Shown in pieces: positions 1-64,000 of a DNA stretch of 64,000 nt. Positions within the stretch are counted from its first letter, which is position 1, and each line of letters starts with the position of its first letter. The notes under the pieces were generated by a model. It worked only from the letters and a program-made list of their open reading frames with translations. It was not told the DNA's origin and made no database searches. Both the position numbers and the translations under genes were made by a program. Origin of the DNA: Nakazawaea peltata (taxonomy: Eukaryota > Ascomycota > Pichiomycetes > Alaninales > Pachysolenaceae). The DNA lies in NCBI GenBank assembly GCA_001599355.1, contig BCGQ01000002.1, forward strand, positions 571,554 through 635,553, in the 5' to 3' direction.

Positions 1-653
1 CTACTGATCCAAAGGCTAAGCCTGCTCCAAGAAATGTATTGACTATTGTTCATAGATTATTGAGAGATTTAGTTCCTTTGTCATGCCACGAAAGAGCCGA
101 AGTATTGAAAGAGACTCAAATTTCTATGGGTAATGAGGGTGTGTCAGAAAAACAAAATGAGATTCCGGCTCCACAACCTCTGGCTGTCGCTCAACAGCAA
201 GCACCAGAAGTAGCAAAAGTGATGCGTCCTCAATATATCTCACCTCAACAGCAACATCTGCTGAACACTCCACAATATGAACACCGTAAAATTGTTCAAC
301 AGATTCCTGTTCAAAGTCCATACCAACATCATCCGCAGCATCTGATTCCAGCCCACTCACCTCCTCCAGGTTATGAGTCTTATTCGGTACCACATCCAAT
401 GGCTGGGTATGCAATGCAACCGATGTCCAACGGACCACCACCACCACCTCCTCCACCTCATCACCACCCTCTGCAACAACCTCCTCAATTCTACATGAAG
501 CCAGGCCAATTCTATGGAATCCCTCAACAAGTGATCCTGACAGGTCCTCCTCCTCCTCAATCTGGTTACCTTTATCAACAACCAGGTTACGTACCTATGG
601 AAAGGATGCCTTCACAACCAAAAATGTATTCTGTACAAACCGAATGGAGATAA
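1..653 (+). CDS. C-terminal part of an unrecognised Q/P/H-rich protein
   Basis: The reading frame (first full codon at position 3) is open from the window edge to the TAA at 651-653, so this is the 3' end of a gene that begins outside. About the first 35 residues look ordered (RNVLTIVHRLLRDLVPLS, then ERAEVLKE). The rest is low complexity: Gln-, Pro- and His-rich, with an eight-proline run followed by histidines and many Tyr-Pro-Gly pieces. That composition is common in fungal transcription or RNA-binding regulators, but I recognise no domain and assign no function. No start codon should be placed inside the window. Confidence 0.75.
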   Translation, partial: TDPKAKPAPRNVLTIVHRLLRDLVPLSCHERAEVLKETQISMGNEGVSEKQNEIPAPQPLAVAQQQAPEVAKVMRPQYISPQQQHLLNTPQYEHRKIVQQIPVQSPYQHHPQHLIPAHSPPPGYESYSVPHPMAGYAMQPMSNGPPPPPPPPHHHPLQQPPQFYMKPGQFYGIPQQVILTGPPPPQSGYLYQQPGYVPMERMPSQPKMYSVQTEWR

Positions 654-1194
654 AAAGAGATAAACTAGACCGTTTTGCATTCATTTATAGCAGCACTTTG
701 CCTATAGTGGTCAACTGGCTTGATTTCATTTAAGTCAAACTGCTGTTTTAATTATATATCATTTTGCTTATTATATAATGTCATTGACATAGGGGTTATT
801 CTAATTGATTAATTTAGTGATAGAGTTGTAAGAGGTGTAGATGACAAAGATGAAGTGCTCTAACCTCTTGGAGAGGTATCACCATCTTCAGGGAACCATC
901 ATCAAGAGACATAAGTAAGCGATGGGGGTATGATTACATAAGCTATCCCAATTAGGAAATATAGGTAGTACACGACCTTACCCCCAAATTACCCCCAATT
1001 ATCACCCCTATCAAGAGATATTGCAAGAGAAGATTCAAATGACCCTCGAAAGATATAATAAATAAGACCTTACTTTTCCCATCTAAGAAAGCATAATTAT
1101 ATTATATTTTGTTTAATATACACCTTTAACAACCGTAAAAATAACAAATAGCATAAAGCTAGTCAACGACTAGCAAAGTTAGAGACTAACAAAT
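654..1194. other. Convergent 3' intergenic region
   Basis: This 541-bp gap lies between the 3' ends of the Q/P-rich gene and ENG1. It is AT-rich with several CCCC/GGGG tracts around 960-1010. I see no ORF with coding character, no tRNA and no clear repeat. Confidence 0.5.
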
Positions 1195-8028: not shown

Positions 8029-9528
<1,500 letters not shown>

Positions 9529-10941: not shown

Positions 10942-13248
10942 ATGAGTTCATTAAGCCAGCTTGCTTCTCAAATTAGAGCTCCTGAGTCATCTCAGGAGAT
11001 ATTCAAAGATGATTGTATGTTCTGTTTCACAACAGTTATCGATGAACCAGGTTTATTTATCTGTCTCCACTGTTACCAGAGCTTCTGTCAACTGCATATT
11101 AAGAGCCATTGTGATGCCTTTAGTGGACATTCGTTATATTTGAATTATTATAAGACTCTTAAACCAATCGAGGAGAGAGAAGAAAGTCCTCTGAAAATGT
11201 TGAAGCTCGAGATTAAAGAGAAGTCTGAGGATGAATTGTACGATTTACACACTAAGATATTTAACTCTGTCACTTCAGAGACAGTAGAGTACAAATCTGC
11301 CGATGATGTGCCAATGTCCATTGGTATGGCTATCGATGATGTTTTAAAGTCCAGATCATCTGAAAAGAAAGAAGAAATCAAAGCTTGGGAGCAGGAAATT
11401 ATCCCCTGTCAACATGCTTTCGATATAGTCCAAACGCCTTTAGAGAAAGTTGATTTGAAGTCGTGCTGCGATTGCGAACTTGAAGAAAATCTTTGGATTT
11501 GTTTGCAGTGTGGATTTACTGGGTGTGGAAGAGCGCAATTTGGGGGTGTTCCGGGAAATTCACATGCAAAACTGCATGCCGAATCAACTGGTCATCCAAT
11601 TGCCGTCAAGCTCGGTTCTTTAACTTTTGATTCTGCCGACCTGTTTTGTTATAATTGTGATGACGAGATTAAGGTACCTGATTTACCAAATTTGCTCAGC
11701 ACCTTCAATATTAACATCCTGAGCGTGGAAAAAACTGAAAAATCGCTTACTGAATTACAACTTGAGCAAAATATCAAGTGGGATTTCAATATGGATAGTG
11801 CTAATGGAGAGCTGTTGAAACCGATTTTTGGACCTGAACTTACAGGGTTCAAAAATTTAGGGAATTCTTGTTATTTGGCATCTGTTTTACAAGTGTTGTT
11901 ATCTTTTGATTCGTTTGTCGAGGAATTTTATGGGCTGGAAATCGATTTTTCTGACGCTTCTCCTAATAGAAGTTTGAAGACTCAATTGATCAAAGTAGCA
12001 AATGGGCTTTTGAGTGGAGAATTTTCTATTCCCGATGAAAGTACCACTGATACCATTAAATATCAGAGAGGTGTAAAGCCATCTTCTTTTAAGTATTTAG
12101 TAGGGAAAGATCATCCTGAATTTGGTACAATGAAGCAACAAGACGCTTCAGAATTTTGGGATTTTTTACTTGAGAAAATTGATGAGCTTTACAAATCGTC
12201 TTTTGATTCAAACCCCTCAAATATTTTCAAATTTGTGGTAGAAAACAAACTTTCCTTGGGTGACGGGAAAATCAAGTTAGATAGCGAACTTTATCACTCT
12301 CTTAGCTTACCATTGATACTGGATATTGAGTCAGTCGATGAAGAAGGTAATAAATCTTATAAGCCTGTGACATTGGAATCTATGCTTGAAAATTGGAATA
12401 GTGCTGAGTCAATTGAAATTGGAGGTGAGGTTCGTCAAAGACGCAGTGGTTTTAAATCTTTACCTAAAGTATTCACAGTTACTGCTCAAAGAATTCAATT
12501 AGTAAATTGGGTCCCTACTAAAGTGGATGTACCTATAAAAATTGGTGACGAACTCGACTTATCCCCCTTCATTTCTGAAGGTGCATTAGAAGGCGAGATT
12601 ATTGTAGAAGATGACAAGAATGCTGAAGACCAATGGACTGCCGATAAAGATGCTCTCGATCAGTTATTGGCCATGGGATTCCCAGAGCCTCGTTGTTTGA
12701 GAGCTTTATATAATACTGGTAACAACTCTCTGGAAGATGCTATGAATTGGTTATTCCTGCATATGGAAGATCCAGATATCGATACTCCATTCGAAGCTCC
12801 TAAGGCAGACACCCAAAAAGCCGGCCCATCTGAGGAGCAAGTCTCGATGATTTCCAGTATGGGATTCTCGGCTCAATTGGCTAAGAAGCTGTTAATTCTT
12901 AACGATAACAATGCCGATATGGCTATAAATTGGATTTTCGAGAACCCAGATGACGATGGAGTTATCGAAGTCTCTGACTCTGGATCTTCCTCTCTGTTAT
13001 CTGATTCCGATATTATCTCGAAGTTAGTCACAACCAATATCCCCTCAGCAAAATACGAGTTAAAGGCTATTATTTGCCATAAAGGCTCGTCTCCTCACTC
13101 CGGTCACTATGTTTGCTTCGTAAAGAAACAATTAGAAGGACAAGAGAGATGGATTTTGTTCAATGACGAGAAAGTGGTGCTTGCCGATGACTCCAACATC
13201 AAAGAAATGGAATCCAATGGGTATATGTATCTTTTCAAGCAAAAGTAA
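10942..13248 (+). CDS. UBP14: Ubiquitin carboxyl-terminal hydrolase Ubp14 (isopeptidase T)
   Basis: The 768-residue deubiquitinase disassembles free, unanchored ubiquitin chains. Domains in order: an N-terminal variant zinc finger (CMFC...CLHC), a ZnF-UBP domain (CCDCELEENLWICLQCGFTGCGR, then HAKLHAESTGHP), a USP core with Cys310 in LGNSCYLASVLQVLL, and two UBA domains inserted in the core (LLAMGFPEPRCLRAL and ISSMGFSAQLAKK). The His box SPHSGHYVCFVKK carries His722. The order matches USP5/Ubp14. The start is ATG 10942 (MSSLSQLASQ); upstream in-frame codons lack an ATG. CTG at 12889 in the second UBA sits where alanine is usual. It runs tandem with MAK32. Confidence 0.96.
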   Translation: MSSLSQLASQIRAPESSQEIFKDDCMFCFTTVIDEPGLFICLHCYQSFCQLHIKSHCDAFSGHSLYLNYYKTLKPIEEREESPLKMLKLEIKEKSEDELYDLHTKIFNSVTSETVEYKSADDVPMSIGMAIDDVLKSRSSEKKEEIKAWEQEIIPCQHAFDIVQTPLEKVDLKSCCDCELEENLWICLQCGFTGCGRAQFGGVPGNSHAKLHAESTGHPIAVKLGSLTFDSADLFCYNCDDEIKVPDLPNLLSTFNINILSVEKTEKSLTELQLEQNIKWDFNMDSANGELLKPIFGPELTGFKNLGNSCYLASVLQVLLSFDSFVEEFYGLEIDFSDASPNRSLKTQLIKVANGLLSGEFSIPDESTTDTIKYQRGVKPSSFKYLVGKDHPEFGTMKQQDASEFWDFLLEKIDELYKSSFDSNPSNIFKFVVENKLSLGDGKIKLDSELYHSLSLPLILDIESVDEEGNKSYKPVTLESMLENWNSAESIEIGGEVRQRRSGFKSLPKVFTVTAQRIQLVNWVPTKVDVPIKIGDELDLSPFISEGALEGEIIVEDDKNAEDQWTADKDALDQLLAMGFPEPRCLRALYNTGNNSLEDAMNWLFLHMEDPDIDTPFEAPKADTQKAGPSEEQVSMISSMGFSAQLAKKLLILNDNNADMAINWIFENPDDDGVIEVSDSGSSSLLSDSDIISKLVTTNIPSAKYELKAIICHKGSSPHSGHYVCFVKKQLEGQERWILFNDEKVVLADDSNIKEMESNGYMYLFKQK

Positions 13249-14966: not shown

Positions 14967-15758
14967 ATGACCGTTGCACATGAAAGCGCTGTTGCGCCAG
15001 AGATGAGAAATATCAAATATAGTTCGAAAAAGTCGGATAAACCTTCCACTTTATTGGCTACTTCTTCTGATCTGACGGAATTGAGAGGCGTGTCGCTCAA
15101 GAATATAATAGCTACTAGATATGTTCAGTTAAACGAGACATTACTTGATGTTCTTGACGTAAAAAGCCAACACAAGATTGGAGATGAGCTTGAAGATGAG
15201 AAAGTTACAGATTATGAGGAACTTAGCAAGAAACTTGAGATTGAAGTTAAAGAATTGGAAAAGGAAGTGGCTGTTACTGCTGGCGCTCTGCCTACAAATG
15301 ATCTCGACCTGAAAATAGCAGCAGCTTTAGCGAGTGAAGGAATTAGAAGAAAACGTCTGTTGTCATATGAGCTGTCTACTTATACAAGTCTGGCTCCTGT
15401 TAAGAGCCGGAAGTTTGAATATAAAAGTGCAACTGATGAAGAGAAGAGAAGTATAATTACTGAGATTATTAATCTTAAGAAAGGGAAGGAACTGCCTAAA
15501 GAAGAGGATGTTGAGATGAAGCTGGAAGTAGAACAGGATCTGAGTCTGAGCATGCCACTGGAGCCAATTGTGCTGGCACCTCTTGCTCTGGAGCTGATTG
15601 TACTGGAGCCAATTGTACTGGAACCACTTGCTCTGGAACCTCTCGCTCTGGAACTGAACCTGATCCCACTGCAATCACTCCCTCAGCAACCACCTATCAC
15701 CCATCTTCCAACCAATGATCCAGAACCTTCAGTCCAACTGCCCGGCGCAGGCAATTGA
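14967..15758 (+). CDS. HTL1: Htl1-like protein (RSC subunit candidate) with P/A/E-rich tail
   Basis: The 263-residue frame occupies the exact place and orientation of HTL1 beside MAK31 in S. cerevisiae. Residues about 40-72 (LRGVSLKNIIATRYVQLNET, then LLDVLDVKSQHKI) resemble the core of the 78-residue yeast Htl1 (V-T-LKNL, then ELLNLVES). Htl1 is a small subunit of the RSC chromatin remodeller. A Lys/Glu coiled region follows (70-170). The tail at 15543-15670 is a degenerate DNA repeat which, with CTG read as Ala, becomes a Pro-Ala-Glu-Ile-Val repeat instead of a leucine-rich one. The extra length is unlike Htl1. Position is the stronger argument and similarity is weak but collinear. Confidence 0.55.
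   Translation: MTVAHESAVAPEMRNIKYSSKKSDKPSTLLATSSDLTELRGVSLKNIIATRYVQLNETLLDVLDVKSQHKIGDELEDEKVTDYEELSKKLEIEVKELEKEVAVTAGALPTNDLDLKIAAALASEGIRRKRLLSYELSTYTSLAPVKSRKFEYKSATDEEKRSIITEIINLKKGKELPKEEDVEMKLEVEQDLSLSMPLEPIVLAPLALELIVLEPIVLEPLALEPLALELNLIPLQSLPQQPPITHLPTNDPEPSVQLPGAGN
15543..15670 (+). repeat. Degenerate coding minisatellite in the HTL1-like gene
   Basis: Repeated CTGGAGCCAATTGTA / CTGGAACCACTTGCT units, in multiples of three bases, encode a Pro-Ala-Glu-rich tail when CTG is read as Ala. The frame is kept through all units. Confidence 0.7.
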
Positions 15759-16467: not shown

Positions 16468-17697
16468 ATGGCTATTACATTATACGAATTTCCAGGTTCC
16501 CCAAGATGTTACGTCGTCCAGGGAATCCTGAAATACTTGGACGTTGAAATTAAGACCCTCAACGCCTATGAGCACCCAGAGTACAAGGAGCTTTTCCCAT
16601 TGGGTAAGCTCCCAGCTATTGTTGGTGAGAAGGGAATCAAAGTTTACGAGACCTTGGCCTGTGTCGACTATGTTATCTCCATCTCCAAGAGTGACAAGGC
16701 TGCCACTTTCAAGGGTAAGACTGCTATGGAGCAAGTCCGTACTGTCCAATGGACTTCTATCTTCACCACTAGTTTATTGGAGAGTATGGGCGACTATATT
16801 CTTCCACTTGTTGGTAAGGGAAGTTACAACAAAGTCAAGTCTGATGCTGCCTTTAAGAACATCGAGAAGATTGCCGAGCTCGTCGACAGCAGATTGAAGG
16901 AATTCACTTATTTGTCTGCCGAGTTTATCACTCCTGCTGATGTCTTTGCTGCTCAATCCTTTGCTACTCTCTTCAAGTTTGTCTTGGATCAAAAATGGGC
17001 TGCTGCTCACCCAGAGACCATCAGATGGTACAAGACTGTCATTGAGCACCCTCTGGTCAAGTGTGTTGTTCCAGGATTCTTCGTCACCGACAAGAGAGCT
17101 GTCTACACTCCTCCAAAGAAGGAAAAGAAGGCCGCTGAACCAAAGGCCGAGAAGCCAAAGGCCGCCGAGGCTGCCGCTCCAGCTCCAGCTGCTGAGGAAA
17201 TCAAGAAGCCAAAGCACCCATTGGAACTGTTGGGTAAGCCAAAGATGGCTCTTGACGAGTGGAAGCGTGTCTACTCTAACGAGGAGACCAGAGAAACCGC
17301 TTTGCCATGGTTCTGGGAACACTACGACCCATCTGAATGGTCCTTGTGGAAGGTTGCTTACAAGTACAACGATGAGTTGACTTTGACTTTCATGTCCAAC
17401 AACTTGGTCGGTGGTTTCATGAACAGATTGTCTGCTTCCACCAAGTACATGTTCGGTTGTATGGTTGTCTACGGTGAGAACAACAACAACGGTATCATCG
17501 GTGCTTTCTTGGTCAGAGGTCAAGAGCACGAGCCAGCCTTTGATGTTGCTCCAGATTGGGAATCTTATGAATTCGAGAAATTGGATGGTTCCAAGCCAGA
17601 GGTCAAGGACTTCGTCGACAACATGTTCGCTTGGGACAAGCCAGTCGTTATCAACGGTGAATCCAAGGAGATTGCCGACGGTAAGGTCTTCAAATAA
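16468..17697 (+). CDS. TEF4: Translation elongation factor eEF1B gamma subunit
   Basis: The 409-residue protein has an N-terminal GST-like domain (about 1-205), a Lys/Ala/Pro/Glu linker (210-250) and the conserved eEF1-gamma C-terminal domain (255-409). Typical segments are ALPWFWEHYDPSEWSLWK, NELTLTFMSNNLVGGF, RLSASTKYMFGC and FDVAPDWESYEFEKLDGS. It anchors the eEF1B guanine-exchange complex that recharges eEF1A. In S. cerevisiae TEF4 has an intron hosting snR38; here no in-frame 5' intron is supported. CTG 17227 lies in PLE-x-LGK, where the family has Ala. The stop is only 16 bp from the CWC23 stop on the other strand, so the transcripts must overlap. Confidence 0.97.
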   Translation: MAITLYEFPGSPRCYVVQGILKYLDVEIKTLNAYEHPEYKELFPLGKLPAIVGEKGIKVYETLACVDYVISISKSDKAATFKGKTAMEQVRTVQWTSIFTTSLLESMGDYILPLVGKGSYNKVKSDAAFKNIEKIAELVDSRLKEFTYLSAEFITPADVFAAQSFATLFKFVLDQKWAAAHPETIRWYKTVIEHPLVKCVVPGFFVTDKRAVYTPPKKEKKAAEPKAEKPKAAEAAAPAPAAEEIKKPKHPLELLGKPKMALDEWKRVYSNEETRETALPWFWEHYDPSEWSLWKVAYKYNDELTLTFMSNNLVGGFMNRLSASTKYMFGCMVVYGENNNNGIIGAFLVRGQEHEPAFDVAPDWESYEFEKLDGSKPEVKDFVDNMFAWDKPVVINGESKEIADGKVFK

Positions 17698-20669: not shown

Positions 20670-23600
20670 ATGAGTGTAAGTACATGATTGTAATTGAGAT
20701 TGATGTGTTTTAGATGATCTCGGGCAGGTTTTCCCATCGGCGCTTAATACTAACATTATTAATCATCAGGACAACACGATGCAAGTCGATCAACCAGAGG
20801 TTGGCAAGATCGATGAGAGCTTGTATTCAAGACAATTGTATGTCTTGGGTAAGGAGGCTATGTTAAAGATGCAAAATTCTAACGTATTGGTGATCGGATT
20901 GAAGGGATTGGGTGTTGAAATCGCTAAGAATGTTGCTTTGGCAGGTGTCAAATCATTGACTTTATATGACCCTGAAAATGTCGAATTGGCTGATTTGTCG
21001 AGTCAATTCTTCTTGACTGAGGCTGATATTGGTAAGCCTCGTGCTTTGGCTACGGCTGGAAAGTTGGGTGAGTTGAATCAATACACTCCAATCACTGTTA
21101 TTTCTGAGTTGACTCAATTAAGTGCTTATCAAGTTATTGTTTCTACAGGATTGTCATTGGAACAGAACTTGGAGATCAACAAGTTCACTCATGAAAACAA
21201 TATCAAATTCATCATTGCCGATGTTAAAGGTTTATTTGCCCGTGTATTTGTTGACTTCGGTGATAAATTCACTGTCTATGATCAAACTGGTGAAGAACCT
21301 CATACTGGTATTGTTTCTGATATTGAGAGTGATGGTACTGTTACTATGTTAGATGATAATCGTCATGGAATGGAAGATGGTGACTGGGTTAAGTTCACTG
21401 AGGTCCAAGGAATGGACAAATTAAATGATGGTACTCCTTATCAAATTGAAGTGCTTGGTCCATATCTGTTTAAGATCAAGATTGACTCATCATTTGGTAC
21501 TTATCAAAAGGGAGGTATTTACACACAAGTCAAAGTTCCAAAGGACTTTTCTTTTGAACCATTAGCTAAGCAATTGGAGCAACCAGAGTTCTTCTTCTCT
21601 GATTTTGCCAAATTTGATCGTCCTTCTCAATTACATTTGGGTTTCCAAGCTCTTGATGTCTTTGCAACTGAAAATGGAGCCTTACCTAGACCTATGAATG
21701 CTGAAGATGCTTCTAAAGTTGTCGAGATCACCAGCTCTCTCAAACTGAAATATCCTCAAGTCTTGGAAGATGATGTCAACGAAGAATTGATCAAAGAATT
21801 AGCTTACCAAGCCAGAGGTGATATCCCAGGTATGGTTGCCGTTATTGGTGGTATGATTGCTCAGGAAGTATTGAAGGCCTGTTCCGGTAAATTCGTTCCT
21901 ATTAAGCAATGGATGTACTTCGACTCGTTAGAATCTTTGCCTGAATCTGAACAATTCCCAAGAACTGAAGAAACTTGTAAACCTTTGAACTCAAGATACG
22001 ACAACCAAATTGCCGTTTTCGGTGTCGATTTCCAAAAGAAGATCGCCAACGTCAAGGTTTTCTTAGTTGGTTCAGGTGCTATTGGTTGTGAGATGTTAAA
22101 GAACTGGGCTATGATGGGTCTTGCCTCCGGACCTGAGGGTAAAATCATCATCACTGATAACGACACCATTGAGAAGTCCAACTTGAATAGACAATTCTTG
22201 TTCAGACCAAAAGATGTTGGTAGAAACAAGTCAGAAGTTTCTGCTGAAGCTGTTGCCGCTATGAACCCTGAGTTGAAGGGTAAAATTGAATCCAAGTTGG
22301 ACAAGGTTGGCCCAGAAACTGAGAATATCTTTGATAACAAATTCTGGGAAAGCTTAGATTTCGTTACCAACGCTTTAGACAATGTCGAAGCCAGAACCTA
22401 TGTCGATCGTCGTTGTATCTTCTACCAAAAGCCACTTTTGGAGTCTGGTACTTTGGGAACTAAGGGTAACACTCAAGTCGTTATTCCTCACTTGACTGAA
22501 TCTTATTCTTCTTCCCAAGATCCACCTGAAAAATCGATCCCATTGTGTACCTTGAGATCTTTCCCTAACAAGATTGACCATACTATTGCCTGGGGTAAAT
22601 CGTTGTTCCAAGGTTACTTTGCTGATGCTCCAGAAAATGTCAATTTATACCTTTCTCAACCTAACTTCGTCGAGGCCACTTTGAAGCAAAGTGGTGATAT
22701 CAAGGGAATATTAGAATCTATCTCTGATTATCTCAAGAAGAGACCATACACTTTCGAGGAGTGTATTAGCTGGGCTAGATTGGAATTCGAGAAGAAGTTC
22801 AACCATGACATCAAGCAATTGCTTTACAACTTCCCTAAAGACGCCACTACTTCCACTGGAGCTCCATTCTGGTCTGGACCTAAGCGTGCTCCTGATGCTT
22901 TGGAATTTGATATCAATAATGATGACCATTTCCATTTCATTGTCGCCGGAGCCAACTTGTTGGCCTACATTTATGGTTTGAAGGGTGATCAAGGAGAACC
23001 TGATAAGAGTTACTACTCTAAGGTTCTCAATGATGTTGAGATTGCCGAGTTCACTCCTCTTTCAAACCTCAAAATTCAAGTCAACGATGAAGATCCAGAT
23101 CCAAATGCCGGCTCCGGTGATATGGGTAATGATGTTATCCAACAAATCACCAACAGCTTGCCATCCCCATCAACCTTAGCTGGCTTCAGATTAAACCCAG
23201 TCGAGTTCGAGAAGGATGACGACACTAACCATCATATTGAGTTCATCACCGCTGCCTCTAACTGTAGAGCTTTGAATTACAGTATTGAAACTGCCGACAA
23301 GCAGAAGACTAAGTTCATTGCTGGTAGAATTATCCCTGCCATTGCTACAACTACTGCTTTGGTAACCGGTCTTGTATGTTTGGAATTATACAAGGTTGTC
23401 GATGGAAAGACTGATATTGAAAAGTACAAGAATGGATTCGTTAACTTGGCTTTACCATTCTTTGCCTTCTCAGATCCAATTGCTTCTGCTCAAGGTTCTT
23501 ATAACGATAAGAAGTTCGATATGATCTGGGGCAGATTCGATCTCCATGGTGATATGACTTTACAAGAGCTCATCGACCACTTCGAAAAGGAAGAAGGTTT

Positions 23601-23823
23601 AGAGATCAGTATGTTGTCCTACGGAGTCACATTGTTATATGCTTCATTCTTCCCTCCAAAGAAGTTGAAGGATAGATATCCATTGAAGATGACTGATTTA
23701 ATCAAAGAAGTCAGTAAGAAAGAAGTTGCTCCACACGAAACTATTTTGATTTTCGAAATTTGTGCTGATGATAAGAATGGCGAAGATGTCGAAGTACCAT
23801 ATGTTGCTCTTCACCTTGACTAA
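20670..23823 (+). CDS. UBA1: Ubiquitin-activating enzyme E1 (two exons)
   Basis: Exon 1 is 20670-20675 (ATG AGT), the intron 20676-20769 (GTAAGT donor, TACTAAC at 20748-20754, CAG acceptor) and exon 2 20770-23823. The 1019-residue protein begins [20 protein letters not shown] and aligns end to end with S. cerevisiae Uba1. The two ThiF-like halves carry [13 protein letters not shown] and [15 protein letters not shown], the latter followed by [17 protein letters not shown] for ATP and ubiquitin adenylation. The catalytic Cys595 is in [16 protein letters not shown]. The C-terminal ubiquitin-fold domain recruits E2s. Translation from the internal ATG 20779 would lose only four residues. CTG 21466 replaces the Ala of the yeast GPFAFRI motif. 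Confidence 0.97.
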
Positions 23824-30137: not shown

Positions 30138-30209
30138 TGCCCGTTGCTGGAATCGAACCAGCGATCGCCTCATTACGAGTGAGGCGCCTTACCACTTGGC
30201 CAAACGGGC
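30138..30209 (-). tRNA. tRNA-Thr (anticodon CGU)
   Basis: The 72-nt cloverleaf has acceptor GCCCGTT paired with AACGGGC and discriminator A. The D arm is GCCAAGTGGTAAGGC, the anticodon stem CCTCA/TGAGG with loop CTCGTAA (anticodon CGT), and the T arm GCTGG TTCGATT CCAGC. It has no intron. It resembles S. cerevisiae tT(CGU). A T7 run follows the 3' end as terminator. It is the only tRNA I found; the tRNA that would read CUG is not in the window. Confidence 0.97.
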
Positions 30210-30907: not shown

Positions 30908-31604
30908 ATGCAGTTTGTAGCACAGGATTTATATGGAGGCGCCATTACAACCAATATACCTTCTGGTCTCATTGATGCGTCAAGATTCAGACAGATTCCA
31001 GATACTCAGGAAGTATTTGTGAACTCGACCTCAAATGACAGCGACTTCTCACAGATGTGCAAAGACGATAGTTTGATTGTGGATCTTTTGGAGATGGTAG
31101 AAGGAACCGATGAAGAGAGTATCAAATGGCATTTGGCAGAATTGAGTAATTTGAATAGTGTTGGAGAGAATGAGTGGGCATTAGTTGATTTGAAGAAAGT
31201 TGAGCTCAATCATTTCGAGTAAGTAAAGCGGCACTACCCCAGGGAGCTACTCCAGGGCAAACCTAGATCAGATGATGTGGATACTAACATACTACTATAG
31301 ATCTACAAATGCATACATTGCTACATGCATTGAGCCATCGAAGAAATGGGGTCGTGATGATGGTGGAGCCTCGTTGATTCTCATATTGGGATTGATAAGA
31401 ATACCAAAAGTTCAAACTGATCTTCTTATAACGCTGAACTGTCCAGTTAGTCAGGCGGAATTTGGTGAGCAAATCAAACTTTTGGAAGCAGGTCAAACGG
31501 CATCTGTTAACTCGCTGTTGAAGACTAGAATTTCAACCGCAGAAAGTATTGTGAAAAAACTGGTGAGCGAATTGCAAATTAAGGATTGGGGTTTGTTTGC
31601 ATAG
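30908..31604 (+). CDS. MOG1: Ran-binding nuclear transport factor Mog1 (two exons)
   Basis: Exon 1 is 30908-31218, the intron 31219-31300 (GTAAGT, TACTAAC at 31282-31288, TAG) and exon 2 31301-31604, giving 204 residues. The start DLYGGAITTNIPSGLIDASR followed by PDTQEVFVN is the hallmark of Mog1 (S. cerevisiae ELYGGAITTVVPPGFIDAS). Mog1 binds the GTPase Gsp1/Ran, releases nucleotide and supports nuclear protein import. The splice joins a split Glu codon (GA/A). The C-terminus DWGLFA parallels the yeast DTSLFA. Confidence 0.95.
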
Positions 31605-38075: not shown

Positions 38076-39797
38076 TTATGAAAAGGGATTATTAATAGAA
38101 GGGGATGATTGGGGAGATTGGGAGGTTTCGGGTGATTGAGTCGATTTGGTTGATTCTTTAGATCCACCAGCAATATACGGAGTCAGGCTCTTTCTTTTAC
38201 CAGGTTTTTGTATCTTGGTATTGACAACCTTCACAAGATTTCTCTCCTCATCTTTTGCCCCGATCCGGGATCTTAGAAAAAACTTGCCCTTATTATGCGC
38301 ATAGATCTCGTCTAGTTTATCCGAGTCTACCCTTCTTGTCTCGGGGACAAATAAAATAACAAACACCAGACTAAGGGCAACATTGCAACAGAAGAAATAT
38401 CCGTACTTGAACTTGATGAGTCCAACTATGAATGGGGTGAAAAATCCAATGACAAAAGTGGTCATCCAATTCAGAGCTGACAGAGTAGACATCCCCTTCC
38501 CTCTCAAATTCTGGGGGAATAACTCACTGACCACTAAAACCGATATCGGGCCCCAAGTTGTAGCAAACAGTGCAATAAAGATACATGTACATAAAACCAT
38601 TACTATTCCTGTACTTTTCAGTGCTATTAATTGGAAACTTCCAACTGTAGAAAATGTAGCCAAACAGACAAGCATGACACAAGCTCCGAAGACGAGTGAA
38701 TTTCTCCTTTGGAATAAATCACTAGTAAATACTGATAAAACAGAGAAGCATAGGTTGACTGTTGCCATTGAAATGGAGACAATGTAAGGATTATCGATTC
38801 CAGCACTCAGAAATATTGCTGTTCCAAAGAAAAAGAAGTAGTTAATTCCTGTCAATTGTTGGAATACCATAAGCAAAGTACCAACAACAAATCTCTTTCT
38901 GATTCCTGGATGAGAATTCAGAGAAGGTGTAGGCTTTTCAGTCTGAACTTTACAAAGGCTCTCTACTGTTTCACGGACATACCAATGTGTAGGTTCTAAG
39001 TTGTTCAACCGGGCGACTACTTTTAGAGCATCATCTTCTCTATTTTTGCTCATCAAGTAAACTGGAGATTCTGGTATGACAGTCATTAATCCGAGACCCG
39101 AGAATGCCAAAATTACAAATGATACAATCAAAGGTAGTTCATATTGCATATCTCCCTCAATATCTTTCGAAAGATATAACATAATAGATCCAATGAAGAT
39201 CCCACTAGTTGTCATGAGCTGCATCAATGCTATCAAAATTCCTCTCAATTTTAATTGAGGTAATTCTCCAATAAAAATCGGTGCTACAACTGTGATGATC
39301 CCGACCCCAAAGCCATTGAAAATTCGGGCAACAATTACTTGAATCCAATTATTACTCATTATAACTAGGAAATTTCCAATAGCGTATGATGTAATCAGAA
39401 GCATAAGAGTGTGTCTGCGACCCAATTCCTTGCTCAAAAGATTGGATACCGACCCTCCTAAACATCCAAATATGCTGGAAACACCTATAATTGACCCAGA
39501 AATAAGCTGAGACAGACCGTTTCCAGGAATAAATTTTGCCCTGAAACTAGGAGAATTCACCAATCCTCCAATCACTCCTATATCATAACCAAAATTTAAC
39601 CCACAAAGTGATATCTGTATACAATAAAGAATACTGTACTTCAACTTCAACATTTCTTTTACATTCAACCGGGAATTGATGGTACCAAGACTACCGGCAG
39701 TTCCAAGAATAGAAACAACTGGTGACTGTATAACAGTTCCCGAATCACTTCCATTGACTGCTCTATCAGATAGACCAGTATTATTTGATAAAATCAT
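38076..39797 (-). CDS. MFS sugar-porter-family transporter, divergent
   Basis: The 573-residue protein has 12 predicted spans and sugar-porter marks: FGYDIGVIGG in TM1, LGRRHTLM, PESPVYLM after TM6, QQLTGINYFFFFGT in TM7 and VPETRR at the end. The GR-K/R and PESPR motifs are altered (R to V in PESPVYL). The loop after TM4 reads IGELPQLKLRG instead of the usual E-x-AP-x-x-RG. The N-terminal cytosolic region (about 45 residues) and a Ser/Pro-rich tail (about 530-573) are longer than in simple hexose carriers but shorter than in Rgt2/Snf3 sensors. Substrate cannot be told from sequence. Confidence 0.85.
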   Translation of the reverse strand: MILSNNTGLSDRAVNGSDSGTVIQSPVVSILGTAGSLGTINSRLNVKEMLKLKYSILYCIQISLCGLNFGYDIGVIGGLVNSPSFRAKFIPGNGLSQLISGSIIGVSSIFGCLGGSVSNLLSKELGRRHTLMLLITSYAIGNFLVIMSNNWIQVIVARIFNGFGVGIITVVAPIFIGELPQLKLRGILIALMQLMTTSGIFIGSIMLYLSKDIEGDMQYELPLIVSFVILAFSGLGLMTVIPESPVYLMSKNREDDALKVVARLNNLEPTHWYVRETVESLCKVQTEKPTPSLNSHPGIRKRFVVGTLLMVFQQLTGINYFFFFGTAIFLSAGIDNPYIVSISMATVNLCFSVLSVFTSDLFQRRNSLVFGACVMLVCLATFSTVGSFQLIALKSTGIVMVLCTCIFIALFATTWGPISVLVVSELFPQNLRGKGMSTLSALNWMTTFVIGFFTPFIVGLIKFKYGYFFCCNVALSLVFVILFVPETRRVDSDKLDEIYAHNKGKFFLRSRIGAKDEERNLVKVVNTKIQKPGKRKSLTPYIAGGSKESTKSTQSPETSQSPQSSPSINNPFS

Positions 39798-40661: not shown

Positions 40662-41870
40662 TTATTTCTTCGATTTACCTAACTTGTACAATACAATATC
40701 CTGGTACAAATCAACGGCCTTAACAAGCTCTTGCACACTAATGTGTTCATTAGCAGCATGAATAGTATCAAAAGTACCTGGACCAATTAAATATTTGGTG
40801 AAATTACCTCTCAAAGTAGCAGCATCAGTTCCTCCTGGCATAATCAGAGTCTCATAACCAGGAATGTCGTAATCAAAGAACACTGGGTCATGAGATCTGT
40901 AACCAGTCATTTCAATTCTATCGTACTTAGCTACGATACTCTTGAACATTTCATCGATGGTATTGAGATCGGTATGGGCATTTCTTAATAACAATGTCAG
41001 CTCCAGATCACCTGGGATAACGTTAGCTGCGACACCACCTGAAATCTTACCGATGTTCAAGGTCGATTTACCCAATTCTTCACTACCTGGGAATTCAGTA
41101 GCTCTGAATTCCTCCAAAACATCCATAAGTAACTCGATCAGATTGATACCCAATTCTGGAATGGAAGAGTGACCAGCTTTACCATGAGCTTTGAGGGTAC
41201 AAGCTGCGTTTCCCTTGTGACCTACAATCAAATGGAAATCGGTTGGCTCACCAAAGATGACGGTTTCCCAAGGAAGACCCAAATTCTCATAAGCGTCTCT
41301 GGCACCATCACCACCACTTTCTTCACCGACGTCTAATAACAAGGCGACATCTCCATCCTCAATGCTTCCAGACTCTACAAGCTTCTCAAATGCAACAACC
41401 TGTGCTGCAACAGACAGCTTGTCATCGGTAGCACCTCTGCCATAGATATCATCACCTTCAATCCTATAAGGGAAGTAAGGTGGAACGGTGTCAATATGAG
41501 AAGTCATCAAAATCCTGGTTTCCCTCTTCTCTCCATAGTAAATGAAAAGGTTCTGTCTACCGGTAGTCTCATCAATGATGAAGTTCTCAACAGTAAAGCC
41601 CTTGCCCTTCAAATAACCTTCCAAATATTCAGCTACTTTGGCCTCATTGTAGCTGACACTTGGAATCTCAATAATATTCTTATGTAAGTCAATCAATTCA
41701 GCATTCTGCTCCCAAATTGACCCAGCAGCATGAACTTCTTCTGTCAGTTGGCCCTCCTGCAAGGTACCAAGTGGATTCTGACTTAAGTCCGAGCCTCCAA
41801 ATGGAAATAAAGGAGAACCCAAACAAAGAGAACCATATAACGCAATTGATTTAATAGACTTCACCAACAT
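40662..41870 (-). CDS. M20-family zinc peptidase/deacylase, secretory N-terminus
   Basis: The 402-residue protein has M20 metal and catalytic motifs in order: SHIDTVPPYFP (His ligand and catalytic Asp), GRGATDDKLS (bridging Asp), GEESGGDGA (base Glu and ligand Glu), GEPTD, HGKAGHSS and HAANEHI (last His). The N-terminus (MLVKSIKSIALYGSLCLGSP) is hydrophobic enough for a signal peptide or anchor, so vacuolar or extracellular location is possible. M20 enzymes cleave dipeptides or N-acyl amino acids (carboxypeptidase S, ArgE, DapE types). It lies 216 bp upstream-to-tail with the flavin oxidase on the same strand. Substrate unknown. Confidence 0.85.
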   Translation of the reverse strand: MLVKSIKSIALYGSLCLGSPLFPFGGSDLSQNPLGTLQEGQLTEEVHAAGSIWEQNAELIDLHKNIIEIPSVSYNEAKVAEYLEGYLKGKGFTVENFIIDETTGRQNLFIYYGEKRETRILMTSHIDTVPPYFPYRIEGDDIYGRGATDDKLSVAAQVVAFEKLVESGSIEDGDVALLLDVGEESGGDGARDAYENLGLPWETVIFGEPTDFHLIVGHKGNAACTLKAHGKAGHSSIPELGINLIELLMDVLEEFRATEFPGSEELGKSTLNIGKISGGVAANVIPGDLELTLLLRNAHTDLNTIDEMFKSIVAKYDRIEMTGYRSHDPVFFDYDIPGYETLIMPGGTDAATLRGNFTKYLIGPGTFDTIHAANEHISVQELVKAVDLYQDIVLYKLGKSKK

Positions 41871-46560: not shown

Positions 46561-48516
46561 ATGTCGAAGAATCATACCATGGACTCCAACGTCACGAATG
46601 CTTCGTTGTCGATTTTGTCACAACAACAGCACCATCAAAATCAGATCCAGTTGATGAATTTACAACAGCAGCAAGAATTACAGCAGAAAACCAAGTCTTT
46701 CCAATCTACTAGATCATTGGAGTCGGCCAAGAATTTGGCTAGAACGTCTACTCAAACTCATAACAACCGTCAAAATTCGGTTCATAAAGATCCAAGAGAC
46801 CCATTGACTGTACAGATCCCAACTTCTTCAAATCCGACCGATGTACTCGCAGCCAGATTTGCTACCTGGAGATCGATTATCAAGCTGCTTTCTGTCTACT
46901 TGAAGGAAGTTGCTTCTGTCCATGAAGAAGTGGTTAGACAACAGGTCAGATTACAGCATCTGATCAGCTTCCCATTCAATATGCAAGGTTTGAATGGTGA
47001 GTTATATCAACCTTTTTCCCAGCAACCAAACAATTCCTTGCAAGAAGAAGTGCAACAACTGTCCAAGTTCTTCTTGCCTTTAGGAAATGGGTCGATCCAA
47101 GATTTACCTTCCACTTTGTTTCAATTCCATACTGTAAGTTCTCAAATGCTGTCCAGTATAGCTAAAGAATTAAATACGACTACTATTCCAAGATTAGAAG
47201 AGTTGAGGAGAGATTTGTTAGTGAAGATCAAAGAAATCAGAGGCTTACAGAGTGACTTTAAGAATTCTGTCGGGAAAGAGCAACAACAAACCAAGCAAGA
47301 ATTACAAGGGTTCTTGAATGCTCTTAGTTTGTGTAAGAAGAGTAGCTCAAGTTTACAACCTCGTCATGATCCATATTTGCTTAAGCTATCATTAGATAAG
47401 CAAATCAAGAAACAGTTAACAGAGGAGAATTATTTGCATGAACTGTTCATTAACTTGCAAGGCTCAGGTAGAGAGTTAGAAAAGGTCGTGGTGATCGAAA
47501 TCCAAGCCCTGTTAACTACTCTGGCCAAATTATTGGGTCAAGAGCTGCAATTATCATTTGATATCTTGATCACCAAATTGGATTCCGGTTTCATCACCAA
47601 AGATGCTGTTTTTGAATGGGACAGCTTTATTTCAAGAGATTCCAATTTTGTGGATCCTAGTTTGCCAATGAGACATACTACCGATATCAAGTATGATGGT
47701 CAACACAGTGCATTAACCACCGAGGTTCGTTCAGGATACCTTGAAAGAAGATCCAAATTCCTCAAGAGCTACTCTAAAGGTTACTACGTTTTAACTCCTA
47801 CGTTCATACATGAATTCAAGAGTCCTGACCGTAAAAAGGACCCAATTCCTATAATGTCTTTATCGTTGGATGACTGTCAGGTTGCAGAACACTCGAAGAA
47901 AGAAGGAGACGGTTCATCATGGCACAAGTTTGTATTGCATGCTAAGCAAAACGGTATCATCCACAGAGGTCATAACTGGGTATTCCGTGCGGAGTCTTAC
48001 GATGAGATGATCTTTTGGTATAATGATATCAAAAGATTAACATCTTTACCTAGTCCAAGTGCCAGACTGCTGATGTTAAGCCAAGGTCAAGATGAACAAC
48101 GTAAAGCTTCGATGAAGACCAAATCGATCAGCTCTCTGAGAAATTCGACTCATGCCTATGCTAAGAGAGGTGATCATCTGTCATTGATTGATAACACTGG
48201 AGTAATCACCGTCTCTAGCAACCAAGACCCTTTACCTGAAGATGGACATCAAATATTCACCCCAACTCACCCACCGCCACAAGATTTGACTAACACGACT
48301 TTGTCGTCGGAGGTGGATTTTAGCACACTTTCCGAACACAATCATAATCTGGGCTCAAACAAAAAATCAACTGGAACTGTGACAGAGGAAAGCCTGATTA
48401 CGCCACCTGATCTATATGATAATTTAAGTGAGAATCAAAAGAAGGCGTTTAAGAAATATTCGTTAGACGATGAGATAGAGGTGCAACAGCATCCAGTTGA
48501 TCGTATATTTGAGTAG
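46561..48516 (+). CDS. SLM1: TORC2 effector with BAR-like and PH domains (Slm1/Slm2)
   Basis: The 651-residue protein has a Gln-rich N-terminus (1-60), an F-BAR-like helical region (about 95-350; starts RFATWRSIIKLLSVYLKEVA) and a PH domain (about 390-505, SGYLERRSKFLKSYSKGYYV to NWVFRAESYDEMIFWYNDI). A phosphorylatable Ser/Thr-rich tail ends PVDRIFE. Slm proteins bind PI(4,5)P2 at eisosome-linked plasma membrane sites, deliver Ypk1 to TORC2 and are calcineurin substrates. The start is ATG 46561 (MSKNHTMDSN); the frame is open upstream but without ATG. Confidence 0.92.
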   Translation: MSKNHTMDSNVTNASLSILSQQQHHQNQIQLMNLQQQQELQQKTKSFQSTRSLESAKNLARTSTQTHNNRQNSVHKDPRDPLTVQIPTSSNPTDVLAARFATWRSIIKLLSVYLKEVASVHEEVVRQQVRLQHLISFPFNMQGLNGELYQPFSQQPNNSLQEEVQQLSKFFLPLGNGSIQDLPSTLFQFHTVSSQMLSSIAKELNTTTIPRLEELRRDLLVKIKEIRGLQSDFKNSVGKEQQQTKQELQGFLNALSLCKKSSSSLQPRHDPYLLKLSLDKQIKKQLTEENYLHELFINLQGSGRELEKVVVIEIQALLTTLAKLLGQELQLSFDILITKLDSGFITKDAVFEWDSFISRDSNFVDPSLPMRHTTDIKYDGQHSALTTEVRSGYLERRSKFLKSYSKGYYVLTPTFIHEFKSPDRKKDPIPIMSLSLDDCQVAEHSKKEGDGSSWHKFVLHAKQNGIIHRGHNWVFRAESYDEMIFWYNDIKRLTSLPSPSARLLMLSQGQDEQRKASMKTKSISSLRNSTHAYAKRGDHLSLIDNTGVITVSSNQDPLPEDGHQIFTPTHPPPQDLTNTTLSSEVDFSTLSEHNHNLGSNKKSTGTVTEESLITPPDLYDNLSENQKKAFKKYSLDDEIEVQQHPVDRIFE

Positions 48517-48901: not shown

Positions 48902-50680
48902 ATGGGCTACTTGCAACTTGTCTTTAACGCTGTAAGCAGCTTCTTTGATCAACCATTAGTCGTGCAAATCATTGTCATTGTCGGACTCATTGGCGCCGTC
49001 ATTTACTCGGTCTTGACCAAAGTCCTCCCTAAATTGTTCGTCGTACCGCCATATGATTGGATTGATAAATTGGTGTTGCTGTTGCAATCGAAGCTGCAGA
49101 ACCCGAAATTGAAATCCACCAACAAATCTGGTTCATATAGACGTCGTTTGGTCTTGGGTTCTGCCCGTCCTGCCTTGTACTCTACCACCGAAAGTATAAG
49201 GGGCTTAAGAATTGCCGCCATCGATAAGGAGAATCAGATCGAGTTCTTGAGACAGTGCAAGATCAAGAGACCTGATGATGAAACAAGAAGAAAGATTTAT
49301 GGGTTCTTCCACCCATACTGTAACTCCAGTGGTGGAGGAGAGAAGGTACTTTGGGAGATGGTGAAGGATGTTTTACAGAATGATGAAAAGAACATTGTTG
49401 CTATTTATCATGGAGAATCACTGACTCCAAAGGACATTTTACTCAACGTTGGACTGAAATTTCATTTGACTGGATTACCTAGTGATAGAATTGTTTTCAT
49501 TTATCTCCCTCATGTATCATTAATTGACCCTCGTTCATGGCCATTTTTCACTTTGGTAGGTCAACTGATCGGGTCGATTGTCTTGCTGTTTGAACTGCTT
49601 TATCAATTGAGTCCTGACGTTTGGGTCGATACCGTCGGATTACCATTTTCATATCCTCTTGTTGGTCTTTCCCTTAAGATCCCAATCCTCGCTTATACTC
49701 ATTTCCCTGTCATTCAAAGTGAGATGTTAGGCAAATTGAATGTTTTTTCGATCAAAGGATCCATTAAATATGTGTATTGGTACTTATTTATGGGGCTGTA
49801 TAAGATGTGTGGAAAATTTGTCAGCTTGCTGTTTGTCAATTCCACCTGGACTTACAATCATATGTCTGAGATTTGGGATTTCATGGAAGAAGGTAGCATC
49901 GTGAAATGTTACCCAGTTTGTTCTCCTGATTTATTGCTTGAGAAGTCTCTGAAATCTCTGAAATCTCTGAAAAGAGAACATACAATTGTTTCTTTATCTC
50001 AATTTAGAGACGAGAAGAGACATGATTTGATATTGACTGAATATCTGAAATATCTTGAGTCAGTTCCTATTGAAGATGCATTTGACTTGAAATTAATTGG
50101 CTCTACAAGGTCTGAGGCCGATCTCCTGAAAGTGAAGAGCTTACAAAAATTATGTCAAGATTTGAAAATACCTACAGGTAAAGTGCATTTCTTAGTTGAT
50201 GTAAAATATGAACAGTTATTGGAGGAATTGGTGTCATGTGAAGTGGGGTTGAATGCTATGTGGAACGAACATTTCGGAATTGTTTGTGTTGAGTACATGG
50301 CTGCTGGATTGATTCCATTAGTTCATGCATCTGCTGGACCTTTACTTGACATTGTGGTGCCGTGGGATTCTAAGGCTAAAGCTCAAGTTGAGGAAAATAC
50401 CGAGTCTACAAGAACTGGATTCCATTTCAAAAGTGAGACCGATCCAGATTACAATGAATCTTTCAAAGAGTACAAGTCATTGAGTGAGAACCTTGTCATT
50501 TTGTCCAAATTGTCAGAAATTGAAAAGCAGGAGATTAGACAACGTGGAAGAGATTTGGTAAAGACTAAATTTGCAGACTCCAAATTCGTCTCATTACTTG
50601 AGAAGGGCTTAACCTATATTGACGAATTAGAAGTGTTCAACAGAGTGGATAAGCGTGATAAAGTGGATCAAATGTACTAG
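48902..50680 (+). CDS. ALG11: Alpha-1,2-mannosyltransferase Alg11 (GT4)
   Basis: The 592-residue ER enzyme adds the fourth and fifth mannoses to the dolichol-linked oligosaccharide on the cytosolic face. An N-terminal span (PLVVQIIVIVGLIGAVIYSV) is followed by YGFFHPYCNSSGGGEKVLWE (family signature), SPDVWVDTVGLPFSYPL, and the GT4 E-x7-E motif NEHFGIVCVEYMAAG near residue 455-470. CTG 49595 in FE-x-LY corresponds to the Ala of WEAL in animal Alg11. The start is ATG 48902; a longer open frame upstream has no ATG. Convergent with WSC1 (70 bp). Confidence 0.96.
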   Translation: MGYLQLVFNAVSSFFDQPLVVQIIVIVGLIGAVIYSVLTKVLPKLFVVPPYDWIDKLVLLLQSKLQNPKLKSTNKSGSYRRRLVLGSARPALYSTTESIRGLRIAAIDKENQIEFLRQCKIKRPDDETRRKIYGFFHPYCNSSGGGEKVLWEMVKDVLQNDEKNIVAIYHGESLTPKDILLNVGLKFHLTGLPSDRIVFIYLPHVSLIDPRSWPFFTLVGQLIGSIVLLFELLYQLSPDVWVDTVGLPFSYPLVGLSLKIPILAYTHFPVIQSEMLGKLNVFSIKGSIKYVYWYLFMGLYKMCGKFVSLLFVNSTWTYNHMSEIWDFMEEGSIVKCYPVCSPDLLLEKSLKSLKSLKREHTIVSLSQFRDEKRHDLILTEYLKYLESVPIEDAFDLKLIGSTRSEADLLKVKSLQKLCQDLKIPTGKVHFLVDVKYEQLLEELVSCEVGLNAMWNEHFGIVCVEYMAAGLIPLVHASAGPLLDIVVPWDSKAKAQVEENTESTRTGFHFKSETDPDYNESFKEYKSLSENLVILSKLSEIEKQEIRQRGRDLVKTKFADSKFVSLLEKGLTYIDELEVFNRVDKRDKVDQMY

Positions 50681-54071: not shown

Positions 54072-55451
54072 ATGAGTGAAAGTACAGCTCCTTCGATGTC
54101 TGAAGGGTCTTCGAATCCCATGCCTGGACCTCCGAAATTGGATATACAGAAGATTTATCTGGACAGTGATGGTACAGTCTCGGGAATGTCGAAGTCTGTC
54201 TTCGACCAGGCTGTTATGAATAATCCATATTTTGCAGCTGGTGGTGGATTGATGCTTTTGGGAGGTGCATTGCTGATTCTGAGATCACTTGTGGTTAAGG
54301 GAGCTGGATTTCTGTATCGTCAGCTTCTTGTTGACTTAGAAATTTCCTCCAAAGACAGATCATATGGCTGGTTCCTCGAGTGGATGTCTCAGCACAAGAC
54401 CAGAGTATCCAGACACTTGGCGGTGGAGACTAACTATGCTCAACGTAAAAATGGAAGTGTTGAGACTGATTTCTCGTTGGTTCCTGGTCCAGGTAACCAT
54501 TTTTTGAAATACAAGGGAGCTTTTATGTTTGTAAAGAGAGAAAGATCTGGGAAGTTATTGGACATGCATAGTGGAGCTCCATTTGAGACCGTGACATTGA
54601 CTACATTATACAAAGATCGTAATTTATTCTATAATATGTTGGACGAACTGAAAAGATTACTGTTGAAATCTTCGATTGGAAAGACCGTTATTTACACCCC
54701 ATGGAACAAAGACTGGTTACCCTTTGGTCTGCCCCGTAAGAAGCGGATGATAGACAGTGTCATTTTAGACAAGGGGGTTAAGGAAGAAATTTTGAAAGAT
54801 GTCAAAGGTTTCCTCAAGAACGGTGATTGGTACCATGAGAGAGGAATCCCTTACAGAAGAGGATATTTGCTCTATGGACCTCCAGGAAGTGGTAAGACCA
54901 GTTTTATCCAGCTGTTAGCTGGTGAATTAGACTATGACATTTGTCTTTTGAATTTGTCGGAGCTGAATTTGACCGACGACAGATTAAATTATATAATGAA
55001 CCATATTCCTGGCAGAAGTATTTTGTTATTAGAGGATATTGACCTGCTGTTCAACAAAAGAGAACAGTCTACCGAGTCTGGTTACACTAGTAAAGTCACA
55101 TTCAGTGGGTTGTTGAATCTGCTCGATGGTGTGACATCAGCCGAGGAAATCTTGACTTTCATGACCACTAATCATCCAGAAAAGTTAGATCCTCTGTTAA
55201 TGCGTCCGGGAAGAGTAGATTATAAAGTACTTATCGACAATCTGACTGAATACCAAGTTGAACATTTGTTCAAAAAATTCTACCCAGACCAAGACGAGAA
55301 ATGTGCTCAATTCTTAGACAAGTACAGAGCATTAAATCTCACCAATGTCAGTACAGCCGCATTACAGGGTTTATTTGTCTACAATAAATTTAATCCTCAA
55401 GGCTCTATTGACATGATCGAGGTGTTGAAAAATCCTCGTCATTCATTCTAA
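54072..55451 (+). CDS. BCS1: Mitochondrial AAA translocase Bcs1
   Basis: The 459-residue protein has a short N-terminus, one membrane span (about 57-76), the BCS1-specific domain (about 80-220) and an AAA domain with Walker A GPPGSGKT (269-276), Walker B ILLLEDID and second region of homology ending MRPGR. Bcs1 moves folded Rieske protein Rip1 across the inner membrane into complex III. Eight CTG codons, including those in ED-I-D-x-x-FNKR, LLN-x-LDGV, LDP-x-LMRPGR and N-x-TEYQV, sit where other Bcs1 proteins have Ala. The start is ATG 54072 ([10 protein letters not shown]); the preceding in-frame GTG is not a yeast start. Confidence 0.98.
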
Positions 55452-55489
55452 AACTTGTATATAATTTCTATAATGAATTTTAGCTGTAA

Positions 55490-59613: not shown

Positions 59614-59864
59614 GTTCAAGGCTAATTTAGTATGGTGAGATTCGTGGTGTATGCCGCCCTAGAAAAAATGAGAGATTCAGGAAAGCAAAGAGTACAATTA
59701 ATGAACAATGATTCCAGAACTGATAATTAGAATATACTGAGACAAGGAAAACTAGATGATAGGTGGACCTAACCGAACTCACCTTCTAACCTCCTTCTAC
59801 AGACTATCAAAAACATAAATAAGCAGGTGGAAAATCGTTGAGAGAGGGAAAAAACATTTCTTAT

Positions 59865-61637: not shown

Positions 61638-61841
61638 ATCTACCGTAATATCGTGCCCCAAGTCTCTTCTCAGTCTCTTCTCCCCTCGAGGATCTCCTTG
61701 AGATGAGCTCTCGGACTGAAAAAAAAAAGCTTCAGCGCATTTCTTAGCGACCGCTGCCTAAGTAATTTTTTCGCGCTGTTTGTTTTGATTTTATATGGCG
61801 ATTGTTTACATGAGAAGGGAGGAGCAGAAGAATCAGTGACG

Positions 61842-62528: not shown

Positions 62529-62821
62529 CTGGTGTATTTATAAGTGTATATTAGTGTAATGTATTAATGATCAAGCATAATTAACAATTGGATCCATTAG
62601 CTTGGGGAGGCAGTAAACACCTCCCTGCAAACACTACCCCTCCCCTCAACTTTAATCTCTTATCGTGATGCTCAAGGTAGTGATATCAATATCAATTTCC
62701 ATTTTAGGCAATCGCTCCATGAAGATTTAAGAAGGAAATTGACACTGTGAATTGTTAGGAGATTTCACTAAGAGAGACCAAGTGTTGGATTAGAATATTG
62801 AGAAGACACTAAATCGTCAAG

Positions 62822-63897
62822 ATGGATCCTTTAGAGTTGATTGAGCAGGTATGTGTGACAAATTTAGTGGGAAATGTGATTGATTTCGGCAGCTGAGCAT
62901 GATTAGAAGTGTAACGCCTCCTAAGAAGCTCTGTAGGAAACGATGGGGCGATGGGAGCAAGCTGTAGAAACAGTTCTGAGGTTATTCATCATCTTTTTGA
63001 GTTCCATTACTAACTATTGAATTCTAGGCTGAAAAGAAAGCCAAACCAGCTTCTGGATTTGCCTCTTTCTTTGGAGGTTCTTCCGCTTCAAGGTACGAGG
63101 ACGCAGCTGATTTATACACGCAAGCTGCCAACCAATACAAATTGCAAAAGAACTTTCTGCAAGCAGGTAAGACGTTTGAGAAGGCTGCTGAATGCTTCCA
63201 GAAGGCCTCATCCCCAGATGAAGCTGGAGGTAGCTTGATCGAGGCCTTCAAGGCATACAAGCTGGCCAGTCCAAGCGATGCCGCAAGATGCTTATCAAGG
63301 GCCATTGAGCATTTCACATCCAAGGGTCAATTCAGAAGAGCTGCTAACTACAAATGTGACTTGGGAGAAATATATTTGACTTTAAATGAGAAAGATAACG
63401 CTATTAAGTCATTTGAAGATGCCGGAGATTGGTACTTGTCCGATTCTGCTGAAAGTCTATCGAATAAGTGCTTCTTAAGAAGTGCTGATTTGAAGGCTGA
63501 GATTGGTCAATACGTCGAAGCTTCCGAATTATATGAATCCATTGCTGAGAAGGCTGTTAACAACAACTTGACCAAATGGTCTGTCAAAGACTACTTCACC
63601 AAGCTGGTATTATGTAGACTCGCACTGTCAGACTATGCTGGTGGTGTCAATAAGTTGGATTTATTCATCAGTTGGGATCGTGGTTTTGTTCAGACTAGAG
63701 AATATAAGTTCTTAACTCAGATTTTGGATGGTGTCAAGGACAGAGACCCTGATGTGATAGGTCAAGCTTCTGCAGAATTCGATCAATACAGTAGATTAGA
63801 TAACTGGAAGGTTGCTATTTTGACCAAGATCAAAGACAGCATTGGAGGTGGCGGTTTCGAGGCTGGCGGTGATATGGACGATGATGATTTGACCTGA
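62822..63897 (+). CDS. SEC17: Alpha-SNAP, Sec17 (two exons)
   Basis: Exon 1 is 62822-62848 (nine codons), the intron 62849-63027 (GTATGT, TACTAAC at 63008-63014, TAG) and exon 2 63028-63897, giving 298 residues beginning MDPLELIEQAEKKAKPASGF. TPR-like helices run throughout: YEDAADLYTQAANQYK, GKTFEKAAECFQKA, GQFRRAANYKCDLGEIYL, ESLSNKCFLRSADLKA. Sec17 recruits the ATPase Sec18/NSF to SNARE complexes. The end DNWKVAILTKIKDSI plus an acidic DDDD tail matches the NSF-activating C-terminus. CTG at 63604 and 63625 replaces family alanines (K-A-x-LC and LAA). The S. cerevisiae gene also has a 5' intron. Confidence 0.97.
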
Positions 63898-64000
63898 TCA
63901 CTGCATATATATCAATCTATATATAATACATATGGTATTCAAGCTTAGCAAGATTATAGACTTCTTATTTGGGAAAGTACCAAACTTGGTAATTTCCAAT

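Follow-up and report, generated by a model that had tools for sequence, protein, structure and literature searches.

The window, the whole 64-kb stretch of DNA that was analysed, contains genes on both strands. BCS1 (54072..55451, + strand) and SPB1 (33823..36306, + strand) carry 14 CTG codons each, and their products are 64% and 65% identical to yeast relatives, respectively. ARO3, which encodes a DAHP synthase (8407..9528, + strand), contains five CTG codons, UBP14 (10942..13248, + strand) contains 12, and ALG11 (48902..50680, + strand) contains 14. SEC17 (62822..63897, + strand) is built from two exons (62822–62848 and 63028–63897, stop codon included), and its four CTG codons are located in exon 2. 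The SEC17 intron (62849–63027, + strand) follows nine codons, starts with GTATGT and ends with TAG. EF1B-gamma (TEF4-like; 16468..17697, + strand) and UBA1 (20779..23823, + strand) have only three CTG codons among 42 Ala-coding codons and two among 68, respectively. A protein with BAR and PH domains, presumably SLM1/2-like, is encoded at 46561..48516 (+ strand; 14 CTG codons). The − strand encodes a sugar-transporter-family protein (38076..39797; ten CTG codons), an M20-family peptidase (40662..41870; six CTG codons) and an ABC exporter (25225..28986; 15 CTG codons) in which membrane and ATPase stretches each occur twice.

The highest CTG count, 22 codons or 54% of the Ala codons of the gene, is found in an unnamed protein (14967..15758, + strand) to which no Pfam family was matched. 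Most of these codons lie in the C-terminal half, where the tail around them repeats Pro, Glu, Ile and Val residues. A MOG1-like protein is split over two frames (30908–31222 and 31272–31604, + strand) with an intron or a frameshift between them; the upstream frame is taken to be the first MOG1 part, and the 3′ part (31272..31604) contains an in-frame CTG at 31434. A UBC13-like E2 enzyme lies in pieces at 6177–6708 (− strand), probably owing to an intron, and its CTG codons presumably correspond to Glu and Gln positions of human UBC13. The gene at 45077–45676 (+ strand) has an unsettled 5′ end and, judging from its translation, is presumably MOB1-like. The window yielded a single tRNA gene, tRNA-Thr(CGT) (30138..30209, − strand); no tRNA with the anticodon CAG was found within the 64 kb.

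CTG codons in the columns of Protein Data Bank relatives

The meaning of CTG was read from aligned columns after each CTG had been masked as X. Eight window proteins were searched against the Protein Data Bank and re-aligned to the best relative, with one relative per protein except for UBP14 and EF1B-gamma, whose two halves required two relatives each. Every CTG codon of the eight proteins was taken because the sites listed in the first-pass annotation were a hand-picked selection, and 65 of the 68 codons of this unselected set were aligned. Distant relatives (GlcP, 30% identity; TEF3, 34%; the M20 relative, 36%; USP5, 37–38%) were kept despite lowering the Ala count. The 20 CTG codons of ORF 23905–24831 (cut-off 1e-20) and the ABC exporter (cut-off 1e-140) fell outside the column test through cut-offs that were too strict. 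The tables give only the molecule of each Protein Data Bank entry, and the species named here for the relatives are assumed.

The 65 CTG columns contain Ala in 27 cases, followed by Ser (8), Val (4), Leu, Met and Ile (3 each) and other residues at lower counts. As controls, Ala is found in 103 of the 217 columns of the window's own GCN codons; the 332 columns of the other five Leu codons hold 189 Leu and 13 Ala, and the 269 columns of the Ser codons hold 98 Ser and 22 Ala. CTG thus sits on Ala positions of the relatives about as often as the GCN codons do (Fisher p 0.48), and there is therefore no sign that CTG avoids conserved sites. In 20,000 random draws of 65 columns from the other Leu codons, at most 9 were Ala, and in draws from the Ser codons the Ala count never exceeded 13, which excludes chance as the source of the 27 Ala columns.

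BLOSUM62 scoring of the CTG columns gives 39.9 bits for Ala, 13.6 for Ser and −5.6 for Thr, with every residue other than Ala and Ser below zero, so that the column test alone also prefers Ala to the 17 residues other than Leu and Ser. When profiles derived from the window's own codons are used instead, the CTG columns reach 42.9 bits for Ala and −3.5 bits for Ser. The same BLOSUM62 scoring recovered the standard meaning of all 54 other codons that had eight or more columns, and these codons thus keep their standard assignment. In a closer subset of four proteins at 46–75% identity, the CTG columns hold Ala in 23 of 36 cases, Ser in four and Leu in one, and the standard meaning was returned for 45 of the 46 control codons; CTT, with ten columns, failed and was called Ile. 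The hydrophobicity around the codons was also tried as an indicator of CTG meaning and did not discriminate between the readings (CTG −0.62, Leu −0.37, Ala −0.21, Ser −0.39).

In BCS1, Ala occupies ten of the 13 aligned CTG columns in yeast Bcs1 (6sh3; positions 54273, 54279, 54648, 54660, 54912, 55044, 55047, 55119, 55194 and 55242) and nine of 13 in the mouse protein (6uko). In SPB1, nine of 14 CTG codons align with Ala of yeast Spb1 (6elz), including those at 35767, 35779, 35935, 35941, 35962, 35998, 36022 and 36265. Three of the ARO3 codons (8635, 9406 and 9496) lie on Ala columns of 6u8j. In UBP14, two codons (12730 and 12889) face Ala of human USP5 and the remaining ten of 12 face mixed residues. 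One of the four SEC17 codons (63625) faces Ala of yeast Sec17, and Ala is found in one of nine aligned columns of the sugar transporter in the distant GlcP and in one of five aligned columns of the M20 peptidase. None of the three EF1B-gamma codons faces Ala in the two counted relatives, which have Val, Phe and His; at 16528, the counted relative has Val and three uncounted relatives have Ala.

The first-pass annotation had listed 22 CTG codons as sitting on conserved alanines. All 22 coordinates are indeed CTG and in frame, as judged by the ORF starts or, for SEC17, by the exon. Conservation of Ala is borne out for most but not all of them: among the 17 sites with an aligned Protein Data Bank relative, 14 have Ala in the best relative and three have another residue. 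At 9040 (ARO3), 6u8j has Ser and yeast ARO4 has Ala; at 63604 (SEC17), yeast Sec17 has Lys and alpha-SNAP has Ala; and at 17227 (EF1B-gamma), human EF1-gamma, the sole relative covering that stretch, has His. For the other five sites (21466, 32648, 29540, 13485 and 49595), the surrounding Pfam domains were consulted. ALG11 and OCH1 favour Ala, the UBA1 domain around 21466 slightly favours Ser (Ser 105.7, Ala 104.5, Leu 102.8), and the OPI3 and MAK32 sites fall outside their matched domains.

Domain profiles under three genetic codes

Thirty proteins or protein parts went through three Pfam scans, in which CTG was translated according to table 26 (Ala), table 1 (Leu) or table 12 (Ser). The scan covered all coding stretches except 3–653, 5157–5786 and 9674–10702 (three of 33), and two of the 30 scanned proteins matched no Pfam family. 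Minor families that overlapped better ones were dropped, and the remaining 48 domains, some of which contain no CTG, were summed. The total score under Ala exceeds that under Leu by 117.6 bits and that under Ser by 73.8 bits. Among the informative domains, defined by a difference of more than 0.25 bit, 28 of 33 favour Ala over Leu and 23 of 29 favour Ala over Ser. The matched stretches of PfkB and Asn_synthase shift with the code, so the score differences of these two domains reflect the alignment as well as the residue.

For Spb1_C, the scores under Ala, Leu and Ser are 275.3, 256.2 and 263.5 bits, and Ala likewise scores highest for M20_dimer (82.1, 70.9 and 74.6), ALG11_N (229.1, 220.0 and 225.3), UBA_7 of UBP14 (119.5, 111.3 and 115.1), ABC_membrane of the ABC exporter (273.0, 266.2 and 266.3), Sugar_tr of the 38076..39797 protein (348.6, 342.3 and 347.7), BAR_4 of the BAR and PH domain protein (175.6, 169.6 and 172.6) and DAHP_synth_1 of ARO3 (324.1, 318.9 and 322.3). 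Leu scores higher than Ala in five domains (Asn_synthase, GST_N, CTP_transf_1, the C-terminal GH81 domain and Mog1) and Ser scores higher in six (UCH, Nnf1, CTP_transf_1, the N-terminal GH81 domain, E1_FCCH of UBA1 and SNAP), each by at most 2.0 bits. Mog1 had been put forward in the first-pass annotation as a counter-example, with its CTG placed in the 31430 region. The exception is real but small, with Leu exceeding Ala by 0.3 bits (Leu 24.7, Ala 24.4, Ser 23.4) in a profile whose scores all lie below the cut-off of 27.4.

CTG usage among alanine codons

The 33 coding stretches (window positions 3–63891) contain 267 CTG codons and 823 GCN codons, and CTG accounts for 24% of Ala codons. Its frequency is 17.3 per 1000 codons over 32 coding stretches. 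At least one CTG is present in each of the 33 coding stretches, which upholds the expectation that translation by the standard code introduces errors into almost all proteins.

CTG is unevenly distributed among the genes. Its share of Ala codons ranges from 3% in UBA1 and MAS1 to 63% in the weakly biased ORF 5157–5786. In TEF4, UBA1 and MAS1, the share is 3–7%, and the three genes together use CTG for six of 143 Ala codons compared with 261 of 947 elsewhere (Fisher p 7e-12). When these three genes are used as the codon-bias reference, the CTG share falls with codon bias (rho −0.50, p 0.005, 30 genes); the reference genes were left out of the correlation, which would otherwise be circular. A reference-free analysis yields a first axis that correlates with the CTG share (rho 0.64, p 6e-5, 33 genes). 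The CTG share also rises as GCA and GCG make up more of the GCN codons (rho 0.49, p 0.004), and its relationship to TTG among Leu codons is weaker and negative (rho −0.34, p 0.05). The ABC exporter and an Asn-synthase-like gene are exceptions that combine weak bias with a low CTG share, and a WSC-domain gene shows the reverse.

Judged from codon usage, CUG looks like a disfavoured Ala codon that is kept low in strongly biased genes, and a scarce tRNA probably reads it. The decrease in CUG among the Ala codons of strongly biased genes provides an easy way to test, genome-wide, whether codons that have been captured remain translationally disfavoured after reassignment. CTG avoidance in Serinales and Ascoideales is reported in the available text of PMC11540330. 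Among the literature matches listed, no title concerns the CTG share and codon bias in the Ala clade, which is no proof of absence.

Decoding of CUG and comparison with known systems

The column test and the Pfam comparison agree with the first-pass reading of CUG as Ala, and both select Ala over Leu and over Ser. The window almost certainly stems from the nuclear genome of a budding yeast in which CUG is translated as Ala (NCBI table 26); this yeast most likely belongs to Alaninales.

The standard code, with the Ala matches produced by a biased choice of sites, could be suspected because the sites of the first-pass annotation were hand-picked and five domains prefer Leu to Ala. In the unselected columns, however, Leu is found at three of 65 CTG codons in comparison with 189 of 332 for the other Leu codons; the column test refutes this reading, whose probability is negligible. 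Decoding of CUG as Ser, as in the Ser1 or Ser2 clade, with the Ala columns arising from easy replacement of Ala by Ser, is another alternative. Ser ranks second, after Ala, in both column scorings of CTG, it surpasses Leu by 43.8 bits in Pfam, and six informative domains slightly prefer it to Ala. True Ser codons nevertheless behave differently from CTG, with Ala in 22 and Ser in 98 of 269 columns against 27 and 8 of 65 for CTG, and under the own-codon profiles CTG loses its score altogether when it is treated as Ser. Decoding as Ser is thus highly improbable.

A refinement of the Ala reading, in which CUG is mostly Ala with a real minor share of Ser or Leu and the proteome is partly ambiguous, has a slight chance of being correct. 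A mixture model of the sites fits best with 0.80 Ala (95% interval 0.57–0.99), 0.13 Ser (0–0.35) and 0.07 Leu (0–0.21). The interval for Ala reaches 0.99, however, the best fit from closer relatives is 0.92 Ala (0.69–1.00), and mixed sites do not amount to mixed charging. Decoding in Pachysolen is more than 99% Ala according to the available text of PMC8645108, which contests a previous value of 10% Leu. The window reveals the main meaning of CUG and leaves room for a minor second one. It is similarly unlikely that the source yeast lies outside the CUG-Ala genera described so far and either moved CUG to Ala independently or still mixes Ala with Ser or Leu.

Under the preferred reading of CUG as Ala, and by analogy with what is published on the clade, CUG would be decoded by a tRNA-Ala with an anticodon mutated to CAG, and the ancestral tRNA-Leu(CAG) would have disappeared. 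AlaRS would tolerate the CAG anticodon because it needs no particular anticodon bases. A standard-code protein set from this genome would contain a wrong residue at approximately 17 per 1000 codons, some of them at invariant positions, and annotation must therefore use table 26.

The CUG-Ala code itself is already known, as the first-pass annotation had stated. A clade that reads CUG as Ala is described in the available text of PMC5951914, and the code, NCBI table 26, occurs in Pachysolen, Nakazawaea and Peterozyma. In the available text of PMC8629427, the meaning of CUG was inferred for 462 yeast species, 453 of which are consistent with the known distribution. The order Alaninales includes the family Pachysolenaceae, within which Nakazawaea is placed. 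The window shares its reassignment with these three genera, and membership in the CUG-Ala clade, assigned by the code alone, is most likely. CUG means Ala both in Pachysolen tannophilus (table 26) and in the window, and no code difference is observed as far as tested. The G+C content of Pachysolen is lower than the 40.0% of the window, which makes a different genus within the clade the likelier source. The primary papers on Pachysolen are Muhlhausen 2016 and Riley 2016. The CUG-Ser1 clade (table 12, Candida albicans) has reassigned the same codon to Ser, whereas the window has reassigned it to Ala, and CTG is found at Ser-conserved positions far less often than the window's own Ser codons are. 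The CUG-Ser2 clade (Ascoidea and Saccharomycopsis) has likewise reassigned this codon; in the window, CUG is common and sits on Ala columns.
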